This document shows, piece after piece, positions 32,438 to 46,071 of a stretch of 64,000 bases of DNA. Position 1 is the stretch's first letter; each line of letters opens with the position of its first letter. The notes under the pieces are model-generated. The model searched no databases and had not been told where the DNA came from. It was given only the letters and a program-made list of their open reading frames with translations. The DNA comes from Caldisericaceae bacterium (GTDB taxonomy: Bacteria; Caldisericota; Caldisericia; Caldisericales; Caldisericaceae), in NCBI GenBank assembly GCA_027023025.1, contig JALVXB010000036.1, positions 13,916-77,915 on the forward strand, given 5' to 3'. The translations under genes and the position numbers were made by a program.

Positions 32438-33580
32438 ATGCACGATAAATTAAATAATACTTCTGGCGCTTCGAGTCATTCAAGCACTTCAAGCGCTTTG
32501 GGCAAGTCTGAAATGTCCGATGTATCTTCGAGGGAAATTAACGGCTCGGGAATTTCTCAAGGTCTGTCGCACAACTCAGAGACGCTTCACAAAAATTCGC
32601 TTTCCAAAGGCAAACTTTACGAAAGTACACTTTTTAATCTTCCTTTTCCAGACCTTACTTTTTCCGAATTCTTTATCAAACTCCGCCTTGACGAAGACAG
32701 TCCGTTCCTTAAAGAAACTTTTTTAGGTGCTGCACTCCGCGGTGCCGTAATGAACAGGACAAAGTACCTTTTGTGTGCAAATAAAAAGTCGTTCAACGAC
32801 TGCAGCAAGTGCATACTCGTGCAAAAGTGCGTGTATGCCCAGCTTTTTGAAACGAAACAGCGCGCAAGTGCAGAAATTATGAAAAAGTACAGAGAGATTC
32901 CCCACCCGTTTATTATGACTCCTCTTTTGGAGCAAAACGAAAACGGCAATTTGTCCGTTCGCATCGTGCTTTTCGGCGAATTTATCGAATACTTTCCCTA
33001 CTTCTACTTCGTATTTAAGTCTATGGAAGAGCGCAAAAAGTATAAAGTATTATCCGTTCAAAACTTTGATAAAGATGTACTAAATAACGGTAAACTAATA
33101 ACGCCTTTCGTCCGAATTTCTTCTAGAGATTTTGTTAACAGTGCAAACGGTAGTAAAACTTCGGAAAGTGCAGAGGTGGAAGTAACTTTTCTAACGCCGC
33201 TCCGTATTAAGAAAAATGGAAAACTCGTAAATCCCACTACTTTTGACTTCCAGTCATTCCTCACGAATGTCTTAAGGCGTATTACACTACTTTCTTACTT
33301 TTACGGCAATGAGTGGGGCGTTAGCGGTAAAGATGTGAAGGAGATAATCCGTGCAGCATCGTCCGTGTGCATCGTTAAAAACGAATTGGGCTGGCTGGAA
33401 CTTGAACGCTATTCTTCGCGCAGTAAAACATTTATGCCTATGGGTGGCATCGTGGGAAAAGTCGTTCTCTCAAAAGAGGCTTCGAAGTTCATTCCATTTT
33501 TAAAAGTAGGGCAATACACACAGGTGGGCAAGAATACTTCTTTTGGGCACGGCTATTACACGATAAAGTTGATTTTATAA
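32438..33580 (+). CDS. cas6: Cas6 CRISPR RNA endonuclease, with Ser-rich N-terminal extension
   Basis: 380 residues. About 60 Ser/Asn-rich residues come first. A RAMP-type protein follows: FLKETFLGAALRGAV, a cysteine cluster (CANKKSFNDCSKCILVQKC, about residues 110-128), and the Cas6 C-terminal signature GQYTQVGKNTSFGHGYY. It cuts the precursor crRNA within each repeat, leaving an 8-base 5' tag (ATTACAAC expected). AAGGAG precedes the ATG. It opens a nine-gene same-strand operon, 24 bases before csm1. The Ser-rich head is unusual for Cas6; an in-frame ATG lies at codon 26. Confidence 0.88.
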   Translation: MHDKLNNTSGASSHSSTSSALGKSEMSDVSSREINGSGISQGLSHNSETLHKNSLSKGKLYESTLFNLPFPDLTFSEFFIKLRLDEDSPFLKETFLGAALRGAVMNRTKYLLCANKKSFNDCSKCILVQKCVYAQLFETKQRASAEIMKKYREIPHPFIMTPLLEQNENGNLSVRIVLFGEFIEYFPYFYFVFKSMEERKKYKVLSVQNFDKDVLNNGKLITPFVRISSRDFVNSANGSKTSESAEVEVTFLTPLRIKKNGKLVNPTTFDFQSFLTNVLRRITLLSYFYGNEWGVSGKDVKEIIRAASSVCIVKNELGWLELERYSSRSKTFMPMGGIVGKVVLSKEASKFIPFLKVGQYTQVGKNTSFGHGYYTIKLIL

Positions 33581-33604
33581 GTTAAATAAGACGAGGGGGT
33601 GATT

Positions 33605-36055
33605 ATGAACGGAAAAGGTGTAAGTGATGAGGAACGGCTCGTTGCCGTCGCTGCCTTAATGCACGACATAGGAAAGTTCATGCAAAGAGACAACGATTAC
33701 GACGACATTTTCTCCTTATCTATGTTATTCCGAGATGTTCCTGAACTAAAAACCGGGTTTAACATTTCAGAAAGTAAAGAGTTTATTGATGGTATGAAGT
33801 TCCTTGTTAGGCACCATCACGAAAAAGACCTGGACAAACTTAAAAGTCCAGATGAACATTCTGCTGATGAGATGCGTGTACTTGCAGAGATTATCTCCGA
33901 AGCAGATAACATCTCAAGCAGAGAGAGGGAGGAGCTGAAAGGGCGCAATTTGCCTTTGATGAGGCCAATATTTTTAGAAGTGGGTTTCTCTGAAAGTGCC
34001 GTAAATAGAAGCACCGCAGACCAAACTACTACTGACGAAAAAAGCAAGGACTACTACTTTAAAATTTCTCCTCTGGACTTCAGCAAAGGTAAAGAAACTG
34101 TTATTCCTGAAAAAGGCACGCTTCCAGACGAAAAAATCGAAGAACTCTACAAAAAGCAGTGGCAGGCATTTAAAGAGGAATTTAAAAAGGTATTAAAACG
34201 CACGAAGGGCAGGTTAAATCCGGATGCGCTTTACTACCTTATGGAAAAATACTTCTGGTGCGTGCCTTCTGCTAACCCTAACGGCGTGCCCGATGTATCG
34301 CTGTTTGAACACTCAAAAGTTACTGCAGGCGTTGCTGTTTCAATGCTGCGCTCCAGAACAGGAAAGAATGCAGAGAAAGGGCGCTACCTCCTTGCGGGCA
34401 TTGATGTTAACGGAATTCAGAAGTTTATTTACTCTATTTCCTCAAAAAAGGCACTGAAAAGCCTGAAGGGGCGCTCAATTTTCGTGCAGTTCATTACGAA
34501 TTTAATCGTGCACAACATTCTCTGGGATAAAGAAGTAAACCTTTACGAGTCTAACATCATTTATATGGGCGGCGGCAAAGCGTATCTTATTTTGCCTGCT
34601 ACAGTGAAAGAGCGCTTGCAAGAGCTCTCTAAGGAAATAGAGAAATCTCTGTTTGAAAAGTTTGGAGAAGGGCTTTCCGTAACGGTTGGCTGGGTGGAGG
34701 CATCTGCAGATGACCTTATGCGCGGCAACATCTCGAAGACCTGGAACAACTTAATGTATGCACTTGCAGACAGGCGTACGCATAAGTACAGCGAAATCAT
34801 CCAGTCAGACTTTGCGTCGTTCTTTAACCCCGAAGAGAGCGGCGGTGAATTTAACGAGGAAGGCATCGGAAAAGGCAGGGTGATTTGCCCAATCTGCAGA
34901 AAGGAAGTGCCAGAGAGCGAAACAAAACTTACTCGAGATGGCCTTAAAGTGTGCAAAGAGTGCTATACCTACATTTCAATTGGGGAAAAGTTAAACTCAG
35001 ACGAACTTTACGCAATTATTACGACGGATAGTCTGTCAGGTAATAACATCGAAATTTCGCTTCCGAACCTGCCCGTAAAAATTTACCTTTCAGAAAAACC
35101 GGCAGAGCAAAATAATTCTGACCGTATGCTCACATTAAATGTGACTTCAACGGACCTTACAAAGGCGGACGGATTTATGCTTAATGCAGGTGGTAAATCG
35201 AATGTTTCTGAACTTTCAGGATTTATTGATAGTTCTGACGGTTTTAGGAGAATAGGTATATTAAAAATGGATGTGGACAGCCTTGGCGAGATTATGGCTT
35301 TAGGTATCAAGAATAATGAGAACAGGACGCTTTCCCGCATTTCACAGCTGAGCAGTTCTATTTCTATATTCTTTAAAGGGCACCTGCGGGAAATTTTAAT
35401 GCAAAAAGAATTTTCCGATAGAATCTACATTATTTATGCAGGTGGTGACGACCTGTTTGCAGTGGGTAACTGGCGTGCAATGCCGGCATTTGCAAAAAAG
35501 GTGCGCAGCGACTTCAAGCGCTTTGTTTGTGAGAACCCCGACATTTCTATTTCGGGCGGTATATTTATGATTAAGGATAAGTATCCAATTGCGCGCGGCG
35601 CAGGTTATGCGGACGACGCCGAGGAAGAAGCGAAGAGTTACGAGTATAAAACCCACAAAAAGGATGCAATTTACTTTCTTGGCAAGGCGTTAAGCTGGAA
35701 CGACTTTGAAGTTGCAGAGCATCTCAAAAACGAGCTCGTAAACTATACAGTTGAAGCAAAAAAGAAGTCAGCAATTCACAAGTTAAGACGCATTTACAAC
35801 CTTTACGAGCGTTCTCTAAATGTACTTTACAAAAAGGAGATAAGCGAGGAGGACATAGAGCGCAAGGCGCGGTGGTCAAAGTGGGTGTGGATACTTGCCT
35901 ACTATGTAGGTAGAAAAGACGGCGAAGCGCTCAGACCGCTTCAGGAAGCGCTTACAACAGACCAATTTGACGGTTTAGTTAGCGAAAAACAAATAATTTC
36001 ATATCTTGATGTCCCGGTAAACTGGGCAGACTTATTAACAAGGAGGGAAAAATAA
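33605..36055 (+). CDS. csm1: Cas10/Csm1, type III-A signature subunit
   Basis: 816 residues from ATG 33605, six bases after GAGGGGG (GTG 33599 overlaps that site). The N-terminal HD nuclease domain has MHDIGKF (H20, D21) and RHHHEKD. A zinc finger follows in the middle (CPICRKEVPE...CKEC). The palm domain contains YAGGDDLFAVG with GGDD at residues 613-616. The HD site cuts single-stranded DNA, and GGDD makes cyclic oligoadenylates after target RNA binding. Both sites look intact, matching the presence of a CARF-HEPN csm6 downstream. The stop and the csm2 start overlap (TAATG). Confidence 0.95.
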   Translation: MNGKGVSDEERLVAVAALMHDIGKFMQRDNDYDDIFSLSMLFRDVPELKTGFNISESKEFIDGMKFLVRHHHEKDLDKLKSPDEHSADEMRVLAEIISEADNISSREREELKGRNLPLMRPIFLEVGFSESAVNRSTADQTTTDEKSKDYYFKISPLDFSKGKETVIPEKGTLPDEKIEELYKKQWQAFKEEFKKVLKRTKGRLNPDALYYLMEKYFWCVPSANPNGVPDVSLFEHSKVTAGVAVSMLRSRTGKNAEKGRYLLAGIDVNGIQKFIYSISSKKALKSLKGRSIFVQFITNLIVHNILWDKEVNLYESNIIYMGGGKAYLILPATVKERLQELSKEIEKSLFEKFGEGLSVTVGWVEASADDLMRGNISKTWNNLMYALADRRTHKYSEIIQSDFASFFNPEESGGEFNEEGIGKGRVICPICRKEVPESETKLTRDGLKVCKECYTYISIGEKLNSDELYAIITTDSLSGNNIEISLPNLPVKIYLSEKPAEQNNSDRMLTLNVTSTDLTKADGFMLNAGGKSNVSELSGFIDSSDGFRRIGILKMDVDSLGEIMALGIKNNENRTLSRISQLSSSISIFFKGHLREILMQKEFSDRIYIIYAGGDDLFAVGNWRAMPAFAKKVRSDFKRFVCENPDISISGGIFMIKDKYPIARGAGYADDAEEEAKSYEYKTHKKDAIYFLGKALSWNDFEVAEHLKNELVNYTVEAKKKSAIHKLRRIYNLYERSLNVLYKKEISEEDIERKARWSKWVWILAYYVGRKDGEALRPLQEALTTDQFDGLVSEKQIISYLDVPVNWADLLTRREK

Positions 36056-36555
36056 TGGATAAAACAATCGAAGGCTTACAAAAAGCGACGAAAGAATTAG
36101 CCAAAGCAAGTTGGAGAGATCGAGAGAAATTTGACAGTATGAGAAAACTTTTAGAAAACACGGATGGATTATCCACTTCGATTATTGAAAAAGGTGATTC
36201 AAAAGTGCTTGTTGTAGCAGCTGAGGCAATGGGATTGTATTTAATGAAGCGGGGCATTACAAGCAGCCAGTTAAGAAACATCTTTGGATATGCCAAAAGG
36301 ATTGACGAGGAAGTTAAAAATACGAGTGAGCCGTTGAGCAGCGATGTTGTCCATAAACTCCTATTACTCTCTCCAAAACTTGCCTATGTTGCAGGAAGAG
36401 AAACAAACAGAGATAAAAAAGGAGCGCTCGAACTTTTACGTGAGTTTTTTGATAAGTGCGTGGAGAAAATAGGGACAGATGCAACAAAGTTCAAGCGTTT
36501 TATTGATTTATTTGAATCGATTTTATCTTATCATAAGTTTTATGGTGCAAAATAA
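36055..36555 (+). CDS. csm2: Csm2, small subunit of the type III-A complex
   Basis: 166 residues, helical. ITSSQLRNIFGYAKRI and LLLLSPKLAYVAGRE in the centre and FIDLFESILSYHKFYG at the end match Csm2. Several copies line the crRNA-target duplex in the complex. The start codon overlaps the csm1 stop by one base (TAATG) after AAGGAGGG, so the two are coupled. The N terminus carries about 45 extra residues before the core. Confidence 0.92.
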   Translation: MDKTIEGLQKATKELAKASWRDREKFDSMRKLLENTDGLSTSIIEKGDSKVLVVAAEAMGLYLMKRGITSSQLRNIFGYAKRIDEEVKNTSEPLSSDVVHKLLLLSPKLAYVAGRETNRDKKGALELLREFFDKCVEKIGTDATKFKRFIDLFESILSYHKFYGAK

Positions 36556-36573
36556 TTAAAGGAGGGATAAACA

Positions 36574-37305
36574 ATGGAAAGAGAAAAAGCACAACTCAAG
36601 AAAAAAATATTTATCAGGGGAAAGTTAAAGGCAATTACCGGTTTGCACATAGGAGGTTCTGACCAATCCCTTTCGATTGGCGGCGTGGACAATGTCGTGG
36701 TAAGGGATCCTATTACGAGTATGCCGTATGTCCCAGGCTCTTCAATAAAGGGGAAGATGCGCACCCTCGTCGAAAAACTACACGGACTTATAGATGAGAA
36801 AGGCAAAGTTTACGAACCAGGCGAAGATGCACCTAAAGAGGGCAAACTACTGGGGAAAGTGTTCGGCGTTTCTGCGCAGAATAAACTTAGTGAGCCCACT
36901 CGTTTAATCGTGCGCGATGCGATGCTTACTGAAGAAAGTGCAAAAGAGTTGGAGCGTTTGGAAACGGACCTTCCTTATACAGAGGTAAAAACAGAAGTTA
37001 CGATTAACCGTCTTACATCGGCGGCAAATCCCCGCCAGATGGAGCGCGTGCCCGCAGGTGCAGAGTTTGCTTTCGAGATGGTGCTGAACATTTACCAGGG
37101 AGACGATGAGAAAGAACTACTGAAGATGGTGTTTGAAGGTATGGAACTTTTGCAGGATGACTTTTTAGGAGGCAGCGGAACACGTGGATACGGCAAGATA
37201 AAACTCTTCGTGGACAATCTGCATTACAAAGATGTAAACACTTACAAAGAGTTGCAGCCAGAAAAGGAATACGCAGAGGTTAAAATTCCTGAAGCATTGA
37301 AATAG
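36574..37305 (+). CDS. csm3: Csm3, backbone RAMP and target-RNA nuclease
   Basis: 243 residues. GLHIGGSDQSLSIGGVDN gives the RAMP N-terminal strand with the catalytic Asp (D39), then RDPITSMPYVPGSSIKGKMR. The C-terminal glycine loop is GGSGTRGYGKI. Csm3 forms the backbone filament and cuts target RNA every six bases. The catalytic Asp is present. Length is typical. GGAGGG precedes the ATG, 18 bases past csm2. Confidence 0.96.
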   Translation: MEREKAQLKKKIFIRGKLKAITGLHIGGSDQSLSIGGVDNVVVRDPITSMPYVPGSSIKGKMRTLVEKLHGLIDEKGKVYEPGEDAPKEGKLLGKVFGVSAQNKLSEPTRLIVRDAMLTEESAKELERLETDLPYTEVKTEVTINRLTSAANPRQMERVPAGAEFAFEMVLNIYQGDDEKELLKMVFEGMELLQDDFLGGSGTRGYGKIKLFVDNLHYKDVNTYKELQPEKEYAEVKIPEALK

Positions 37306-37317
37306 TGGTGGTTCACT

Positions 37318-38367
37318 ATGGACACATACATTTATAAACTGAAGTTCCGCTCTCCGCTGCACATAAGTTCCGATGCGCTTTCTCTTGGGAAGCCAGATGT
37401 ATTTTTGCATTCAGATACGCTGTTTTCTGCAATCGTGAACAGTTGGATAAACCTATACGACTTATCTGCACAATTTTTTGAAAACCCACCGTTTATTATC
37501 TCGTCTGCTTTTCCGTTTTACAAAGATACTCTTTTCGTAAAAAAGCCGTACGCCCGCTTGAAAATCAATCAACAGGAATTTGAGCGACACCGCAAAAAGA
37601 TTAAAAAGACTGTTTTCATTTCTATGAGTTTATTTGAAAAGTTTGCGAAAGGAGAAGAAGTGTCCGTTTCGGAAAAGAACTTTCTTGAGGGCGGTTTTTT
37701 ATCGGATGTGGAGATAAACGAGCGGATTTATTCCGTTCAAGAACGCCCCCGCTCCTTCATTCCAAGGTACATTCCCGATTCTTCGGCAGACTCTTCAGAA
37801 GGCTTTGCAGCAGATGAGGGTGAGAATGTAAAAACGGAGATTTTCTACACCACCGCAGTACACTTCTCTGACAACGCCGGGCTTTTCTTCTTTGCATCGT
37901 TTGAAAGTAAAGAAGTAAAAAAGCAGTTTGACGGTGCGCTTTACCTTCTGGGAGATACAGGGATAGGTGGAAACAGGACGAATGGGTACGGACTATTTGA
38001 GGTGGAAAAAACAGAAAAGTTCAACAATCCTTTTGAAAGTGGCGATTATGCTATTGCGCTTTCTCTATACCACCCAAAGGAAGAAGAAGTGAAAAACGGC
38101 ATTCTAAGCGGTGCGCACTTTAGCGTTGTTTCTCGCCAGAGCTGGATTTTCTCTGGTAGTGCACGCCCCTACCGCAGCAAAAAGGTGCGTATGTTTGACG
38201 AGGGCAGCATATTTAAGGGCTGCGGTGATTTAAGTGGTGATGTGCCAGACATTACTCCCCGCATTGCAGAAGAAGCGAACATCTTTCCTCACAGAATTTA
38301 CCGCTATGGAAAAATTTTCAAATTCTGTCTTCCAGCAAGTGTATTAACGGAGGCAAACGATGGATAA
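37318..38367 (+). CDS. csm4: Csm4, 5'-tag-binding RAMP subunit
   Basis: 349 residues. YKLKFRSPLHISSDALSLG at the N terminus and the glycine-rich LGDTGIGGNRTNGYGLFEV loop in the centre are Csm4 hallmarks. It binds the 8-base 5' tag of the crRNA and docks Cas10. A loop rich in Ser/Asp (about 155-180) looks like an insertion. Its end overlaps the start of csm5 by eight bases. Confidence 0.93.
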   Translation: MDTYIYKLKFRSPLHISSDALSLGKPDVFLHSDTLFSAIVNSWINLYDLSAQFFENPPFIISSAFPFYKDTLFVKKPYARLKINQQEFERHRKKIKKTVFISMSLFEKFAKGEEVSVSEKNFLEGGFLSDVEINERIYSVQERPRSFIPRYIPDSSADSSEGFAADEGENVKTEIFYTTAVHFSDNAGLFFFASFESKEVKKQFDGALYLLGDTGIGGNRTNGYGLFEVEKTEKFNNPFESGDYAIALSLYHPKEEEVKNGILSGAHFSVVSRQSWIFSGSARPYRSKKVRMFDEGSIFKGCGDLSGDVPDITPRIAEEANIFPHRIYRYGKIFKFCLPASVLTEANDG

Positions 38368-39559
38368 AAGTATAAAAATACCGCTAACTATGGAGTTTCT
38401 CACGCCTCTCCACATAGGAAGCGGCAAAACATTGCGTTTTGGACAGGATGTATTCCGCTCTAAGGATGGAGACCTTTTTGTAATCTCATTCGATAAATTG
38501 CTTGAAGAACTTTCAACAGATAGGCACTTATTTGCTCAAATAACAGATGCGCTGAGCAGAGGGGAGGGAGTAGAACGCCTTGTCCCTGAAGAACACTTGA
38601 AAAAATACGAAATTTACAAATTGGAAAATGTATCTACTGCTTATGCTACAGATGTATCCGGTTTTATAAAAGATGCGTACAACCGTCCTTTTGTGCCAGC
38701 AAGTTCTATAAAGGGTGGGCTGCGCACGCTTATCTTCCGTGCGTTCTTAATGGACCATCCAGAGTTTGTAAAAGAATTTGAAGATTCTTTACCACGGGGA
38801 CGCATCAGAAAAGAAGATCAAAAGAGAATTAAACAGCGTGCTTTGAGCTTTGAAAAAGACATTTTTGGCAGGAATGCTCAAAAAGATCCGTTGAAGGCAC
38901 TGCGCGTTGTGGACGCATACTCTAACGGCCTTAGGCTTGCCACTGTGAAAGTGCTGGACCTTTCGAACGACGGCACTCAGTGCGGCTGGAGAAAAGCGGC
39001 GGGACAGTTTGGCAAGTTAGAAAGCATTGACAGGGCAACGCCGATAAGTGTCGAAGTGGGTTTTTCAAGTACTGCACAGGTGGAACTCTATATAGATACA
39101 TTCTTTATGGAGCGTTTTAATACAAATTTATTTAAAATGTCTAAACCCAAGTGGTTCGTAGCATTGTTTAATAATTTCTACGAAAAATTTGTGGATTACT
39201 CTAAAAAGTTTGCTCTTTACGACATTGATTACGAAATAGATTTTCTTAACGAGTATGCAAATCGTTGTAATGTAACAGATGTAATTAAAAAGTACAAAGC
39301 GCTTAAAGAACAGGTAAAAAGTGAAGACGGAATTTTTATGCACATTGCCTGGGGAATTGGCTGGAGAGGTATGGGTGGAAGCGTTCTTTCTGATGAAAGT
39401 GCATTGACGCTTGCTCATTCATTAGGGTTGGACAGGTGGAGAAGTGCTTCTATATTCCCAAAGACGCGCCGCTACATCACGGTAAACCTAAAGGGAGAGG
39501 GAGAAAGAGCGAAATTCCCTCTTGGCTGGGTAAAACTCTCTAAAGGAGGTGTAAAGTGA
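38360..39559 (+). CDS. csm5: Csm5, 3'-end-capping RAMP subunit
   Basis: 399 residues. MEFLTPLHIGSGKTLRFGQDVF, RPFVPASSIKGGLRTLIF and the C-terminal GWGIGWRGMGGS region match Csm5. It caps the 3' end of the backbone and recruits trimming nucleases. The stop codon overlaps the GTG start of csm6 (GTGA), after AAAGGAGGTG. Confidence 0.93.
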   Translation: MDKSIKIPLTMEFLTPLHIGSGKTLRFGQDVFRSKDGDLFVISFDKLLEELSTDRHLFAQITDALSRGEGVERLVPEEHLKKYEIYKLENVSTAYATDVSGFIKDAYNRPFVPASSIKGGLRTLIFRAFLMDHPEFVKEFEDSLPRGRIRKEDQKRIKQRALSFEKDIFGRNAQKDPLKALRVVDAYSNGLRLATVKVLDLSNDGTQCGWRKAAGQFGKLESIDRATPISVEVGFSSTAQVELYIDTFFMERFNTNLFKMSKPKWFVALFNNFYEKFVDYSKKFALYDIDYEIDFLNEYANRCNVTDVIKKYKALKEQVKSEDGIFMHIAWGIGWRGMGGSVLSDESALTLAHSLGLDRWRSASIFPKTRRYITVNLKGEGERAKFPLGWVKLSKGGVK

Positions 39560-41157
39560 TTATCGTTTATCCACTGGGAAACAGCGATATGGTTTTTGAT
39601 GAGGCTCCTCTTTTAAAGGCATTTGGAGACAAAGACAACATACGCAGCGGAACGGAGAAAATAATCAAGGAAATAAATAGCAGCGGTTTTGAGTTGCGCA
39701 CATTTCCTGCAAAACTCCAGTCGTCCAGAGTGTACGGCATCATCTATCCAAAAAACGGAAAAGAAAAGCACACATTGAAGTTTCCGTTGCTCAGCGCTTT
39801 GTTTGAGTATATAGATGAGGAATATCGGAAGAGGCCAAAGGATGTCCGCTATTATTTTCTCTACACAAACCAAACAGGCGACAAAAATGGACAGGACACG
39901 ATCCACATCTACGAAATTATAGAGAAATTTTTGAAAGAAGGGCTTCAAATAAAAGATGTGCGCGGTAAGTCTATTGAGGTTAATCCTACCAAACTTTCTT
40001 TGCTTAAAGGCGTGGCAAAGTCCTTGCGTACTGATTTAGAAGAAATGGTAAAAACAAGTTCTGGAAATGAGGAAATAATCATTGCAATTGGTCCGGGCAC
40101 ACCTCAAATGAATATAGCGCTCCTCCTATACCTGTTTGATGTGGAGAATGTCCACTTTGCTTACATCCCGCGTGGAGATAGACCGTATAACCTCCAATTT
40201 GCCCGTGAAATTCACTCTTCACAAACAAAGCGTGCCGTGCTGCAGCTCGTAGAGCACTTTGACTACCGCTCGGCCCTGCTTCTTTATAAGGATTTGCCGG
40301 ACGAAGAAAAACGGGAAATAAATTTGCTCAGGGCTCTTTCTCTGCGTGTGGACTTTAACTTCAATGAAGCATACGAGGCATTGCGCAAGTATCTGGACAA
40401 ATTCGAGCATAAGCCCAGTGAACTAAAGGATTTTGAGTTAGAATTAAAGCGGCTTGCAAACCTGGACAAAAAAGCCTTGCTTCAGGAACTCTACTACGAG
40501 TTTGCTTTAAGAATAGAAATGGAGCATTATCTTGAAGCAGTAGCAATGCTGTTCCGCATAGAAGAAGAACTTTTGAAAATGCTGGTGGAAAAAGTGCTCA
40601 ATGTCACAATAGAAGGTGAGAAAACTCCAAATGGAGATCTTTCGTTCGGTTGGTTCTGGAAAAGGTTGTCTGATGAGAACAAAGACCTCGTGGAAGAGTT
40701 AAATAAAGAAAAAGTCCGTACGAGCGGCACACCGAACAGAATAACCTATCAGAAAATTCTTAACTACTTATACAACGAGTACAAAAGTTTGAGTGAGGAT
40801 AAAAGAAAAGAGAAGGAAAAACTTGGAGTTAAAAACATTACCGAATTAGAAAAGGCCCTTAAAGAAAACATCAGCAAAGTAGAAAAAGTCCTGGAGTTTT
40901 ACGAGTACATAGAAAAGGAAAAAAGAACCGGCGCAAAGTACAGTCTGGTTGAGTTAAGAAATAAAACTCCGTTCGCGCACGGCTTTGAAGGTGTAAGCGA
41001 GAAGAAAGTAAAAGAAACTGCAATACCCGTAGATGAATTGCTCGGAAAGGTGAAAGAGACATTTAAGGCACTTGATGTGGATGTGATACCTCCAAACGAT
41101 TTGGCGTTCCCTTTCAGAAAAGTGAACGGTTATTTAGAAAAGAAACTTAAAGAATAA
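39556..41157 (+). CDS. csm6: Csm6-type CARF-HEPN ribonuclease
   Basis: 533 residues from GTG 39556. The N-terminal CARF domain (about 1-225) has IIAIGPGTPQMNIALLLYL, a ligand loop for cyclic oligoadenylate. A helical linker (about 230-400) leads to a HEPN domain whose catalytic R-x6-H is RNKTPFAH (R468, H475). When Cas10 makes cyclic oligoadenylate, such proteins degrade RNA nonspecifically. The CARF type (preferred ring size) cannot be told by eye. Overlaps csm5 by four bases and cas1 by one base. Confidence 0.9.
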   Translation: MIIVYPLGNSDMVFDEAPLLKAFGDKDNIRSGTEKIIKEINSSGFELRTFPAKLQSSRVYGIIYPKNGKEKHTLKFPLLSALFEYIDEEYRKRPKDVRYYFLYTNQTGDKNGQDTIHIYEIIEKFLKEGLQIKDVRGKSIEVNPTKLSLLKGVAKSLRTDLEEMVKTSSGNEEIIIAIGPGTPQMNIALLLYLFDVENVHFAYIPRGDRPYNLQFAREIHSSQTKRAVLQLVEHFDYRSALLLYKDLPDEEKREINLLRALSLRVDFNFNEAYEALRKYLDKFEHKPSELKDFELELKRLANLDKKALLQELYYEFALRIEMEHYLEAVAMLFRIEEELLKMLVEKVLNVTIEGEKTPNGDLSFGWFWKRLSDENKDLVEELNKEKVRTSGTPNRITYQKILNYLYNEYKSLSEDKRKEKEKLGVKNITELEKALKENISKVEKVLEFYEYIEKEKRTGAKYSLVELRNKTPFAHGFEGVSEKKVKETAIPVDELLGKVKETFKALDVDVIPPNDLAFPFRKVNGYLEKKLKE

Positions 41158-42143
41158 TGAGCACGATATACCTCACCACTCAGGGCTCAACTTTACGGAA
41201 AGAGGAGCATCGTTTCACTGTGGTAAAAGACGGGAAGACGGTGCTCTCCGTCCCGGACTTCAAAGTGGACAGGATTCTCGTCTACGGAAGTGTGCAAATT
41301 ACGACTCAGGCGTTGCGCTTTGCCTTACACAACGACATTCCCATTACATTTCTCACTATGTACGGCCGTCTTATCGGTGCGGCGCTTCCCTCTTTTTCCA
41401 AAAATATATTTTTGCGCATAAATCAGTTTAAAAGATTGTCTTTAGATAGTGAGCGGGTTCTTTTGGCTAAAAAGGTACTTTCAGCAAAAGTTTCAAATAG
41501 CCTTACGATGCTAAAGCGCTTTGCCCGCAGCAAAGGCTTTCAAATTATAAACGAAAATAAGTTTCACTCTGCTCGCTTTGACATAGAAAACGCAAATTCG
41601 ATAGGGACGCTGCGCGGTGTGGAGGGTGGCGTATCTTCTGTGTACTTTATGAACCTTCGTGAGTTGCTTTCGCCTGAAGTATCATTTAAAGGAAGGAACT
41701 ATCACCCGGCAAAAGACCCTTTTAACTCTCTGCTTAACTTTCTTTACAGTTTGCTTTCCAATGAAATGCTGGGAGTAATCCACTCAAAAGGGCTTGATCC
41801 TTATCTTGGGTTTTTGCACTCCGTTGAGTACGGTAGGTTTTCTCTGGTGTTTGACCTCGTGGAACCGTTTCGTGCGTGTATTGCCGACGCCGTTGCAGTA
41901 AAACTGTTCCGCAAAGGAATAATAGACGGAACAGACTTTAAAAAGCACAAACTCTACGGTTTTGTATTAAAAGATGATATGAGGAAAGTTGTTCTGAAAC
42001 ACTACGAAGAGAAAGTGGAAACAGAATTTATATACGAAGGTGCACGATTAAATTTCAGACAGGTGTTTGTGAAAATGGTAGACAGTTTTTCAGATTACAT
42101 CTCTGAGGGTAAGGATTTTAGGCCATTTGTTTTGAAAAAATGA
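41157..42143 (+). CDS. cas1: Cas1 spacer integrase
   Basis: 328 residues. Metal-binding residues E156 (LRGVEGGVSSVYF), H221 (LGFLHSVEYGR) and E236 (FDLVEPFR) are all in place. Cas1 with Cas2 inserts new spacers at the leader-proximal repeat. TAATG overlap with csm6 and ATGA overlap with cas2 place adaptation inside the interference operon. No reverse transcriptase is fused. Confidence 0.96.
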   Translation: MSTIYLTTQGSTLRKEEHRFTVVKDGKTVLSVPDFKVDRILVYGSVQITTQALRFALHNDIPITFLTMYGRLIGAALPSFSKNIFLRINQFKRLSLDSERVLLAKKVLSAKVSNSLTMLKRFARSKGFQIINENKFHSARFDIENANSIGTLRGVEGGVSSVYFMNLRELLSPEVSFKGRNYHPAKDPFNSLLNFLYSLLSNEMLGVIHSKGLDPYLGFLHSVEYGRFSLVFDLVEPFRACIADAVAVKLFRKGIIDGTDFKKHKLYGFVLKDDMRKVVLKHYEEKVETEFIYEGARLNFRQVFVKMVDSFSDYISEGKDFRPFVLKK

Positions 42144-42424
42144 AAAAGAAGTTCTATGTGATTAGTTACGACATAAAGGACGACAAGCGGAGGACCCGCG
42201 TATTTAAAATAATGCGTAACTTCGGCACGCGGGTTCAGTTTAGCGTTTTTGAGTGCATACTGTCAGACGAAAAAATGCAGGAACTACACGATAAAATTGA
42301 AAAAACAATTAAAACCGACGAAGACAGCGTAAGGATATACTACATTCCCGAAAGTTTGAAGAAAAAAATAAAAATTATTGGCGTCGGGGAAGTGGTGCGT
42401 GACCAGAAGTATTTCGTCGTTTAA
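42140..42424 (+). CDS. cas2: Cas2
   Basis: 94 residues. FYVISYDIKDDKRRTRVFKIMRNFGTRVQFSVFEC is the Cas2 ferredoxin-like fold with its conserved N-terminal Asp. The end VRDQKYFVV is also typical. It bridges two Cas1 dimers during spacer integration. It starts inside the last codons of cas1. The CRISPR leader begins directly afterwards. Confidence 0.96.
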   Translation: MKKKFYVISYDIKDDKRRTRVFKIMRNFGTRVQFSVFECILSDEKMQELHDKIEKTIKTDEDSVRIYYIPESLKKKIKIIGVGEVVRDQKYFVV

Positions 42425-42645
42425 CTGGAAAAATGCTGTTGCAATTTAGGCTCTTTATGACTATAATAAAAAGTAAAGTTTTTTGAGATCCACGAAAAGT
42501 GGAAAAGTTGTAGTTGTTTTATTTATTTTTTGCTGCAGTATTTGCATAGAAAGTGTAAAAATATACCTTGACAATTGCACGATTTTTTGAGATCCACGAA
42601 AATGAGCCTGCAAATCCTCTGTTTATCAGTGCCCATACGAGGGGT
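42425..42645 (+). promoter_or_regulatory. CRISPR leader with two 20-base direct repeats
   Basis: AT-rich leader between cas2 and the first repeat. TTTTTTGAGATCCACGAAAA occurs at 42479-42498 and again at 42583-42602 with identical sequence, 104 bases apart. The second copy ends 43 bases before the first repeat. TTGACA (42568-42573) is a possible -35 box. CCACGAAAAGTGG at the first copy can form a small hairpin. Confidence 0.8.
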
Positions 42646-44016
42646 GTCTGAATCTTGCCCTGATTAAAAAGGGATTACAACCTGTGATTTCAAATTTTTT
42701 ATACTCTTCGTATTTTTGCCCGTCTGAATCTTGCCCTGATTAAAAAGGGATTACAACTTTCAAAAGATTCGTTCAGCGTGGAAAAAGTGGTTGGTCTGAA
42801 TCTTGCCCTGATTAAAAAGGGATTACAACACCAGAAGCCAAATCCGGAGAGACTAAACCTTTTGTCTGAATCTTGCCCTGATTAAAAAGGGATTACAACA
42901 TAATTCACCATTTTGCACAAGAGCCAGTCGGCTATTATGTCTGAATCTTGCCCTGATTAAAAAGGGATTACAACTTCAAATTGCTCCATCTTATTCTATA
43001 TGGAGCATAAGTCTGAATCTTGCCCTGATTAAAAAGGGATTACAACACGACAATTATTATCTCTACAATGAAGGCTACTTCTGGGTCTGAATCTTGCCCT
43101 GATTAAAAAGGGATTACAACGTTTACCTGCTATTGTTGCTGTTGCACAAGCGGTATTAGAAGTCCGAATCTTGCCCTGATTAAAAAGGGATTACAACGCA
43201 AGACGCAATGCTAAGTACAGCATACTTCGCCTCCTTTGTCCGAATCTTGCCCTGATTAAAAAGGGATTACAACTTCAATACGACGGCTGAGTAAAACGGG
43301 TGCATTTTGTCTGAATCTTGCCCTGATTAAAAAGGGATTACAACTCCATATAACGCTTTGAGGTCTTCATCCATTTCCTCCTTTAGTCCGAATCTTGCCC
43401 TGATTAAAAAGGGATTACAACATATAATTGTGTTCAGTATCAACAGTTGAAATATCTTCGTCCGAATCTTGCCCTGATTAAAAAGGGATTACAACAGGAT
43501 TATATCCTATTGAGTGTCTTTTTATAACTTCAAGTCCGAATCTTGCCCTGATTAAAAAGGGATTACAACGTTTACCTGCTATTGTTGCTGTTGCACAAGC
43601 GGTATTAGAAGTCCGAATCTTGCCCTGATTAAAAAGGGATTACAACGCAAGACGCAATGCTAAGTACAGCATACTTCGCCTCCTTTGTCTGAATCTTGCC
43701 CTGATTAAAAAGGGATTACAACTTTCAAAAGATTCGTTCAGCGTGGAAAAAGTGGTTGGTCTGAATCTTGCCCTGATTAAAAAGGGATTACAACATCTAC
43801 TTCGTTGCCGACGGCTATCAATATCTTTTATGTCTGAATCTTGCCCTGATTAAAAAGGGATTACAACAATTTGCTGCATAAGTGTTCTTGCTTGCACTAA
43901 ATTGTCCGAATCTTGCCCTGATTAAAAAGGGATTACAACTCCATATAACGCTTTGAGGTCTTCATCCATTTCCTCCTTTAGTCCGAATCTTGCCCTGATT
44001 AAAAAGGGATTACAAG
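42646..44016 (+). CRISPR. main CRISPR array, 19 repeats and 18 spacers (14 distinct)
   Basis: 36-base repeats begin GTCYGAATCTTGCCCTG and end GGGATTACAAC, with an internal CCCT/AGGG stem. The first is at 42646-42681 and the last, whose final base is G, at 43981-44016. Spacers are 34-41 bases. Spacers 7 and 8 (43121-43161, 43198-43237) recur as 13 and 14 (43570-43610, 43647-43686). Spacer 2 recurs as 15, and 10 as 18. Position 4 of the repeat is T in repeats 1-7, 10 and 15-17, and C in the others. It is transcribed rightwards with the cas operon if the leader at 42425-42645 is used. Confidence 0.98.
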
Positions 44017-44020
44017 CAAA

Positions 44021-44041
44021 TCGAGGGACGGATTCCCTCGA
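44021..44041 (+). terminator. hairpin closing array 1
   Basis: TCGAGGGA and TCCCTCGA, perfect 8-bp stem with loop CGGAT, followed by a pyrimidine-rich tail. The same hairpin follows every array here. Confidence 0.75.
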
Positions 44042-44379
44042 AACTCCTTTCTTTTGTGAAGGTGTTCAATAATTTTACGGTGGTTAATTTTTTATGTGTT
44101 TAACACCCGTATTGTTTTTTTAGTGCTTATAACTTCCAATTGAAGGCATTTAATGCAGAGACTCTTTGCTTCGCTCAGAGTGACAAAGTGTTTTATCATT
44201 TTAAGCACATTTTTTTAATTCCACTATCATTTGTGAGCCATTCTCAGAGTTTTTCTCCCCCGTCATCCTCGAGCGAGCGTCAGCGAGCGAAGGATCTCGT
44301 TTTTAAATCCTTCAAGTTTGCACTATACTTTATTAGCAGTTTGCTTACCTTGAAAAGCGCACGAACATAGGAAGCAAAG
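44042..44379. other. spacer region between array 1 and first satellite
   Basis: No gene. Sequence 44042-44165 is homologous to 45491-45617 after the last satellite (shared TTAATTTTTTATGTGTTTAAC). Two dispersed palindromic elements (about 44150-44183 and 44263-44297) follow. Confidence 0.7.
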
Positions 44380-44408
44380 TTAGAAAGGAAACTCCGTGTC
44401 CTTTCTAA
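44380..44408 (+). repeat. head hairpin of satellite array A (inverted dispersed element)
   Basis: TTAGAAAGGA and TCCTTTCTAA form a 10-bp stem with a 9-base loop. This is the reverse complement of the dispersed hairpin family at 30438-30466 and 62740-62768. It lies directly before a truncated CRISPR repeat. Confidence 0.8.
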
Positions 44409-44414
44409 TGTGTT

Positions 44415-44808
44415 TTGCCCTGATTAAAAAGGGATTACAACCACAACAGTAATTTCTGGAACATCAACAGTAAGTAATTTGTCTGAATCTTGCCCTGATT
44501 AAAAAGGGATTACAACTCAATACCTAAGTCCATTTCCTCACCCCTTTTATTTTGTCCGAATCTTGCCCTGATTAAAAAGGGATTACAACATTGTAAACCG
44601 TTGCTCTTCAATTGCTCTGCTTTGTCCGAATCTTGCCCTGATTAAAAAGGGATTACAACTTCATCGTGTCGAGAACAATACAAAGAGCTTCCTCAAGGTC
44701 CGAATCTTGCCCTGATTAAAAAGGGATTACAACACAAAGCAACTCTGAATATTCTATCTCCTTAAAGGACGTGTCCGAATCTTGCCCTGATTAAAAAGGG
44801 ATTACAAG
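44415..44808 (+). CRISPR. satellite CRISPR array A, 6 repeats (first truncated), 5 spacers
   Basis: The first repeat keeps only its 3' 27 bases (44415-44441, from TTGCCCTG). Full repeats start at 44481, 44554, 44624, 44698 and 44773. The last ends in G instead of C, exactly as in array 1. Spacers of 34-39 bases. No leader like 42425-42645 precedes it. Confidence 0.96.
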
Positions 44809-44812
44809 CAAA

Positions 44813-44833
44813 TCGAGGGACAGGTTCCCTCGA
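44813..44833 (+). terminator. hairpin closing satellite array A
   Basis: TCGAGGGA/TCCCTCGA with loop CAGGT, three bases longer downstream by one G. Same position relative to the last repeat as in the other arrays. Confidence 0.75.
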
Positions 44834-44889
44834 GGCTCCTTTCGTTTTGCCTGCTTGCAATGAATTGCCTACAGGTTAAAATGTGAAAA

Positions 44890-45284
44890 GTGCTTACCTT
44901 GAAAAGTGCCCGAACAGAGGAAGCAAAGTTAGAAAGGAAACTCCGTGTCCTTTCTAATGTGTTTTGCCCTGATTAAAAAGGGATTACAACCACAACAGTA
45001 ATTTCTGGAACATCAACAGTAAGTAATTTGTCCGAATCTTGCCCTGATTAAAAAGGGATTACAACTCAATACCTAAGTCCATTTCCTCACCCCTTTTATT
45101 TTGTCCGAATCTTGCCCTGATTAAAAAGGGATTACAACTTCAATCTCTTCTTTCAATCCCATCTTTCTCTCCTTCGTCCGAATCTTGCCCTGATTAAAAA
45201 GGGATTACAACGGAATTACTGAGTTCATCCTGTTTTTACCTCCTCTTTGTCCGAATCTTGCCCTGATTAAAAAGGGATTACAAG
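44890..45284 (+). CRISPR. satellite CRISPR array B with head module, 5 repeats (first truncated), 4 spacers
   Basis: The head module (44890-44963) repeats that of array A, including the hairpin. The truncated repeat is 44964-44990. Full repeats start at 45030, 45103, 45176 and 45249, the last with the terminal G. Spacers 1 and 2 equal those of array A; spacers 3 and 4 (45139-45175, 45212-45248) are new. Confidence 0.95.
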
Positions 45285-45288
45285 CAAA

Positions 45289-45309
45289 TCGAGGGACGGA
45301 TTCCCTCGA
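45289..45309 (+). terminator. hairpin closing satellite array B
   Basis: TCGAGGGA/TCCCTCGA with loop CGGAT. The following 45310-45366 is almost identical to 44834-44890, marking a tandem unit. Confidence 0.75.
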
Positions 45310-45366
45310 GGCTCCTTTCTTTTTGCCTGCTTGCAATGAATTGCTTACAGGTTAAAATGTGAAAAG

Positions 45367-45490
45367 TGCTTACCTTGAAAAGTGCACGAACAGAGGAAGA
45401 AAAGTTAGAAAGGAAACCCCGTGTCCTTTCTAATTGTTTTGCCCTGATTAAAAAGGGATTACAAGCAAATCGAGGGACAGGTTCCCTCGA
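45367..45490 (+). repeat. collapsed satellite module: head hairpin, one fused repeat, tail hairpin, no spacer
   Basis: The head module (hairpin with loop AACCCCGTG) leads into a truncated repeat (45439-45465) that already has the terminal G. It runs directly into the tail hairpin (45470-45490). First and last repeats seem to have recombined, deleting all spacers. Confidence 0.88.
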
Positions 45491-46071
45491 AACTTCTTTC
45501 TTTCATAGAGGTGCTTACCAATTTCGTGGCAGTTAATTTTTTATGTGTTTAACATTTGCATTGTTTTTTCTTTCGGTGCTTGCGTTTGTAATCGAATGCT
45601 TTTGAGGCAGAGATTCTTCAGTCGCTTCGCTCCTTCAGAATGACCGGAAAAATCAGGGAATGCCTTCCCCCGTCATCCTCGAGCGAGCATTAGCGAGCGA
45701 AGGATCTTATAAGTACCGGTCGTGCAGTTTGATGTTTTTGATGTTAACAAAAGGTAAGGTGGTTATGGCAGAGACTCTTCGTTTCGCTCAGAGTGATAAG
45801 AACGGAGTCGTCCTGAGCCGTCTTTGCGAAGGATCTCGTAAGAAATCGGTTGAGCAGTGAGATGTTCTTTATTTGTTAACAAAAGGCAAATGGTTAATGC
45901 AGAGCCTCTTCACTGCGTTCAGAGTGACTGAAGGACACGGGCAATAAAAAAAGCATTGCCATTATGGCAGAGACGCTTTACTCCGCTCAGAGTGACACAT
46001 CAAAGAGGTAGGGCGGTTAGCAGCGTGTTGAGCGAAGCAAAGAGTGGCAAAAAGGAATCCTGAAGAGGGCT
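45491..46071. other. repeat-rich intergenic region after the arrays
   Basis: About 580 bases with no gene. Homology to 44042-44165 comes first. The 179-base composite repeat (45672-45850) and further palindromic elements up to about 46050 follow. Confidence 0.75.
45602..46050 (+). repeat. cluster of seven dispersed palindromic elements
   Basis: GCAGAG-type copies near 45604, 45763, 45893, 45963 and 46020 alternate with GTCATCC/GTCGTCC-type copies at about 45672-45706 and 45808-45840. 45672-45850 matches 30643-30821 over 179 bases with only a handful of differences. Confidence 0.88.

Follow-up and report, generated by a model that had tools for sequence, protein, structure and literature searches.

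The Shine-Dalgarno-ATG (SD-ATG) sites that several CRISPR spacers of this Caldisericaceae genome carry on their reverse complement are most probably a product of the retention of mRNA-antisense guides by a type III system, with the 4 to 5 positive spacers among 26 reflecting a chance excess or, at most, a mild preference peculiar to this array, over a baseline of ~3 to 4%. Capture of DNA by Cas1-Cas2, either unbiased or mildly biased, would be the most likely first step. Because the activity of the Csm complexes requires pairing of the crRNA with a transcript, mRNA-antisense spacers would be kept and sense spacers would tend to be lost, and spacers taken from gene starts would consequently display SD-ATG on the reverse complement. 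That the retention is due to selection is suggested by analogy with an experiment in Thermus, in which positional and strand bias were produced by counter-selection (PMC7515739), and we infer that the targets are viral genes.

The type III-A locus and the direction of its arrays

The window, i.e., the whole stretch of 64,000 nucleotides that was analyzed, belongs to a 1.66-Mb genome with a completeness of 99.9% and contains a complete type III-A CRISPR-Cas operon free of reverse transcriptase (RT) (positions 32438 to 42424), which is followed by rightward arrays. All genes are located on the plus strand and encode Cas6 (32438 to 33580; PADLOC E value of 1.7e-73; Pfam PF10040), Cas10/Csm1 with HD and palm domains (33599 to 36055), Csm2, Csm3, Csm4, and Csm5 (36055 to 39559), a Csx1/Csm6-like CARF-HEPN protein (39556 to 41157), Cas1 without an RT fusion (41157 to 42143), and Cas2 (42140 to 42424). 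The presence of Cas10/Csm1 together with Csm2 to Csm5, and of a CRISPR array adjoining Cas6 and cas1-cas2, identifies a genuine type III-A operon, and the gene content thus supports the RNA-targeting type III system predicted in the initial annotation. The host genome encodes a single Cas1 and no Cas3 above the cut-off.

As in other RT-free type III-A (Csm) systems with their own Cas1-Cas2, a full operon with Cas6 is combined with a 36-nt repeat ending in ATTACAAC, spacers of 34 to 42 nt, and an antisense-to-mRNA bias; there is no categorical difference from these systems, but here a conserved inter-array element divides the arrays into modules. An exact search for the repeat among the named genomes gave no match, and the Cas1-based search in the same genomes returned solely the ortholog contig, which belongs to a Caldisericaceae MAG. 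The Cas1 of the orthologous system in a genome of the same family (G005) is 61% identical. Rfam yielded only weak CRISPR-repeat models.

Since no RT domain was found in Cas1 or Cas6 or (as RVT_1) anywhere in the 99.9%-complete genome, the system does not belong to the type III group with an RT fused to or located near Cas1, and the capture of spacers from mRNA 5' fragments via reverse transcription is largely refuted. The position of the SD at one end of the spacer is what would be expected of an RNA 5' fragment, but this route is also at odds with the probable mRNA-sense orientation of spacer 7 (see below), and we rejected it as very unlikely.

A leader of ~220 nt (42425 to 42645, plus strand) separates cas2 from the first repeat of the main array (42646 to 44016), which comprises 19 repeats of 36 nt and is followed by arrays A (44406 to 44808) and B (44955 to 45284), both of which are plus-strand arrays starting with a truncated repeat. 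The window contains 27 spacers, 21 of them distinct, and contigs C37 and C38 contribute five full spacers, resulting in 26 full distinct spacers plus one that is cut. The array on C38 has an identical repeat and is preceded by a near-identical copy of the leader, and the terminal repeats are degenerate at the right-hand side. Both observations indicate that the leader is at the left-hand end and that the crRNAs would carry the plus-strand spacer sequence. The position of the leader, the decay of the trailer-end repeats, and the 3' end of the repeat agree and indicate that transcription is rightward, a prediction in line with the rightward transcript assumed initially from the sequence, which the location of the leader on the cas2 side supports.

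Spacers 2, 7, 8, and 10 are each present twice due to internal repeat-spacer duplications (42722 to 43980), and the first two spacers are common to arrays A and B. The inter-array module is conserved at positions 44017 to 44405, 44809 to 44954, 45285 to 45429, and from 45466 in the window as well as at two further loci (L085 and L143, genome G005). It consists, in this order, of the terminal repeat, a CGAGGGAC..TTCCCTCG hairpin, a TACCTTGAAAA element that the leader also contains, a TTAGAA..TTCTAA inverted repeat, and the truncated repeat that restarts the array. The module is present in two genera, sometimes with zero spacers between two copies (45430 to 45465), and possibly combines a terminator with a secondary leader or promoter. 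Two dispersed intergenic repeats adjoin the arrays, i.e., GCAGAGACTCTTCGCTTCGCTCAGAGTGAC-like repeats (44143 to 44186, 45756 to 45799, 45887 to 45930, and 45955 to 45998) and CCCCCGTCATCCTCGAGCGAGCG (44256 to 44297 and 45666 to 45707).

Start sites and strand orientation of the spacers

Five of the 21 distinct spacers in the window show SD-ATG on the reverse complement, and the motif scan detected such a site on the sense strand of none of them (0/21), which confirms both counts of the initial annotation. The minus-strand sites are located in spacer 8 (43198 to 43237; AAAGGAGGCGAAGT-ATG), spacer 10 (43345 to 43385; TAAAGGAGGAAATGGATG), spacer 2 of array A (A2; 44517 to 44553; AAGGGGTGAGGAA-ATG), spacer 3 of array B (B3; 45139 to 45175; GAAGGAGAGAAAG-ATG), and spacer 4 of array B (B4; 45212 to 45248; AAAGAGGAGGTAAAAACAGG-ATG). 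The SD-like stretch lies 4 to 9 nt upstream of the ATG, and in all five cases the reading frame is open from the ATG to the end of the spacer. None of the five full spacers from C37 and C38 is positive; the partial spacer at the end of contig C38, whose reverse complement reads TATTCAAGGGGTGGTGATTATGAGTAAT, is probably a sixth case, positive by eye with a weak SD of length 4. Under a strict rule (an SD that matches AAGGAGGTGATC over at least 5 nt, a spacing of 3 to 12, ATG, and a frame open to the spacer end), A2 fails because of its weak SD (GGGGTGAGGAA ATG), and 4/26 are left.

For comparison, the strict rule was applied to 287 spacers of other type III arrays (19 from the ortholog in G005, 86 from other loci of the phylum, and 182 from systems of other phyla in the plasmid collection), a few of which are also located near type I genes. 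The control set comprised 356 spacers from arrays of the host and its relatives, most of them beside type I-B cas genes (Cas3 and Cas7) and the smaller arrays not individually typed; it also includes the second array of the host (37 spacers at C36:1-2486), which is adjacent to another type III operon. Antisense and sense start sites numbered 4 and 0 in this array, 10 and 1 in the other type III arrays, and 6 and 9 in the controls, and pooling of all type III arrays including this one gave 14 antisense sites to 1 sense site. The codon-usage strand test pointed in the same direction, with 67 to 79% of spacers being antisense-coding in the type III arrays of relatives versus 49 to 55% in control arrays (P values of 1e-3 to 1e-6). 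In this array alone, 16 to 18 of 26 spacers were antisense-coding (13 to 14 of 21 without the SD spacers), which was not significant in a sign test but was higher than in the control arrays (P ~ 0.02). The antisense bias is thus evident for the pooled type III arrays and suggestive for this array alone (0 versus 4 start sites). The earlier proposal that the crRNAs would pair with mRNA is supported in the sense of a predominantly antisense orientation, given the ratio of 10 to 1 in the other type III arrays versus 6 to 9 in the controls.

This orientation is the general, published coding-strand bias of type III systems, which is needed for RNA targeting, and the strand bias alone accounts for the lack of sense-strand SD-ATG sites. 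Coding-strand targeting has been reported for ~65% of type III spacers (PMC8482600). Our data resemble those of Vink et al. 2021 (PMC8482600) in the antisense orientation of type III spacers and the approximate strand balance of type I-linked arrays, but here the strand was deduced from SD-ATG and codon usage inside the spacers, without protospacers. Searches with concatenated spacers against phages gave chance matches only (E value of 6), and no protospacer was found in plasmids or in 49 genomes of the class. Viral contigs likewise yielded no protospacer in two exact scans with 20- to 23-mers or in six degenerate scans with two spacers each; these covered only part of the spacers and demanded exact matches over 20 to 27 nt, so that mutated protospacers would escape. 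Self-derived spacers were absent; apart from these arrays, the genome contains one good match, which is itself a spacer belonging to a different array.

Spacer 7 (43121 to 43161, plus strand) is a probable exception to the antisense orientation in this array. It has a coding frame on the sense strand (LPAIVAVAQAVLE), and its homolog is spacer 6 in the second array of the host (L061, ~360 to 394; 28 nt, 93% identity). In the ungapped overlap, the two spacers differ at three sites, each of them a third codon position in the sense frame LPAIVAVAQAVLE, indicating that both arrays sampled homologous genes and that the spacer 7 crRNA is probably mRNA-sense. Separate CRISPR arrays of the same genome accordingly have targets in homologous genes, and the differences between the two spacers are all synonymous. 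We take the peptide motif of spacer 7 to resemble that of glucosaminidase lysins, as a lead only; a tblastn search with the peptide extended by glucosaminidase consensus residues provides no independent support, since the match is driven by the residues that were added. The second array (repeat GTTTGTAGCCAACCTATGAGGAATTGAAAC; 37 spacers) is located directly to the left of the window (C36:1-13915) beside a type III operon encoding Csm6, a Cas10 in which no HD domain was detected, five RAMP proteins, and a CARF protein. No cas1 was observed in this operon. The spacer strands of this array appear to be balanced.

Frequency of start sites and spacer acquisition

The frequency of start sites was compared with a baseline of 38-nt windows tiled across two real phages, which carry such sites on the mRNA strand at rates of 4.2% and 2.9%. 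The antisense rate of the other type III arrays (3.5%) matches these values, and the rate on either strand is 4.8% in type III arrays versus 4.2% in controls (P = 0.85). The general bias toward initiation regions raised in the initial annotation was therefore not borne out: pooled type III arrays are at the random phage rate, and the ortholog array has only 1/19 antisense start sites, its sense-looking GGGGG-ATG spacer being left out by the strict rule. A rate above that of random draws was not replicated in independent arrays.

In this array, 4/26 stands against ~1 expected, with a Fisher P value of 0.02 relative to the 287 other type III spacers. Relative to the two phage baselines, the P values for 4/26 are 0.022 and 0.0065 with an SD of at least 5 nt and 0.0033 and 0.0007 with at least 6 nt, and those for 5/26 under the loosest rule (at least 4 nt) are 0.057 and 0.034. 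Equality with random draws from target genomes, named at the outset as evidence against a start-site bias, thus applies to type III arrays in general and not to this array, whose excess (P ~ 0.02 to 0.0007) is post hoc. The excess is nominal, depends on the definition of the SD, and is without replication in the ortholog, so that a start-site preference is at most a weak, array-specific extra.

The strongest remaining indication of a preference in acquisition is a motif at the spacer end. The SD lies within ~8 nt of the spacer 3' end in all five SD-ATG spacers, a placement not predicted by pure sampling; across the other type III arrays, its offset is scattered from 0 to 26 nt. Position 3 of the reverse complement is an A in 19 of 26 spacers and in 14 of 21 without the SD spacers, and more weakly in the ortholog array (10/19), with motif and positions having been picked after the inspection of many positions. 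A preference of Cas1-Cas2 for gene 5' ends, mediated by AAAGGAGG-like purine tracts at the leader-distal spacer end or by single-stranded or structured DNA near starts, would explain this terminal position of the SD, the recurrent A, and the 4 to 5 of 26 versus ~3.5%. It is nevertheless unlikely in view of the 1/19 in the ortholog, the lack of an excess in other type III arrays, and the post hoc choice of motif and positions. According to a review (PMC9048733), naive spacers of the likewise RT-free III-A system of Streptococcus thermophilus (Zhang et al. 2021) are enriched close to start codons, which favors such a preference, but the enrichment concerns the encoding strand 10 to 50 bp downstream of the start codon, whereas the spacers studied here lie over the SD-ATG on the opposite strand. 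The narrower proposal that Cas1-Cas2 in this lineage favors the capture of ribosome-binding-site DNA in template orientation with the SD at the leader-distal end, and thus targets starts without reverse transcription, is more doubtful still. Selection could also act on position, if guides covering ribosome-binding sites conferred more protection than those directed at other parts of the transcript and were hence retained; the same counts and an orientation compatible with mRNA pairing would fit, but other type III arrays, which should share this benefit, show no excess, and we regard this explanation as similarly improbable.

Strand marking in uncultured lineages

The antisense bias of type III arrays is an already known rule. 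The SD-ATG content marks the strand of spacers without recourse to protospacers (antisense-to-sense ratio of 14 to 1 for type III arrays versus 6 to 9 for controls) and thereby offers an inexpensive way to verify the orientation of arrays and RNA targeting where a lineage is uncultured and its viruses are unknown. A preference for start sites, which the present evidence does not establish, would, if true, bear on how RT-free type III systems choose their spacers.
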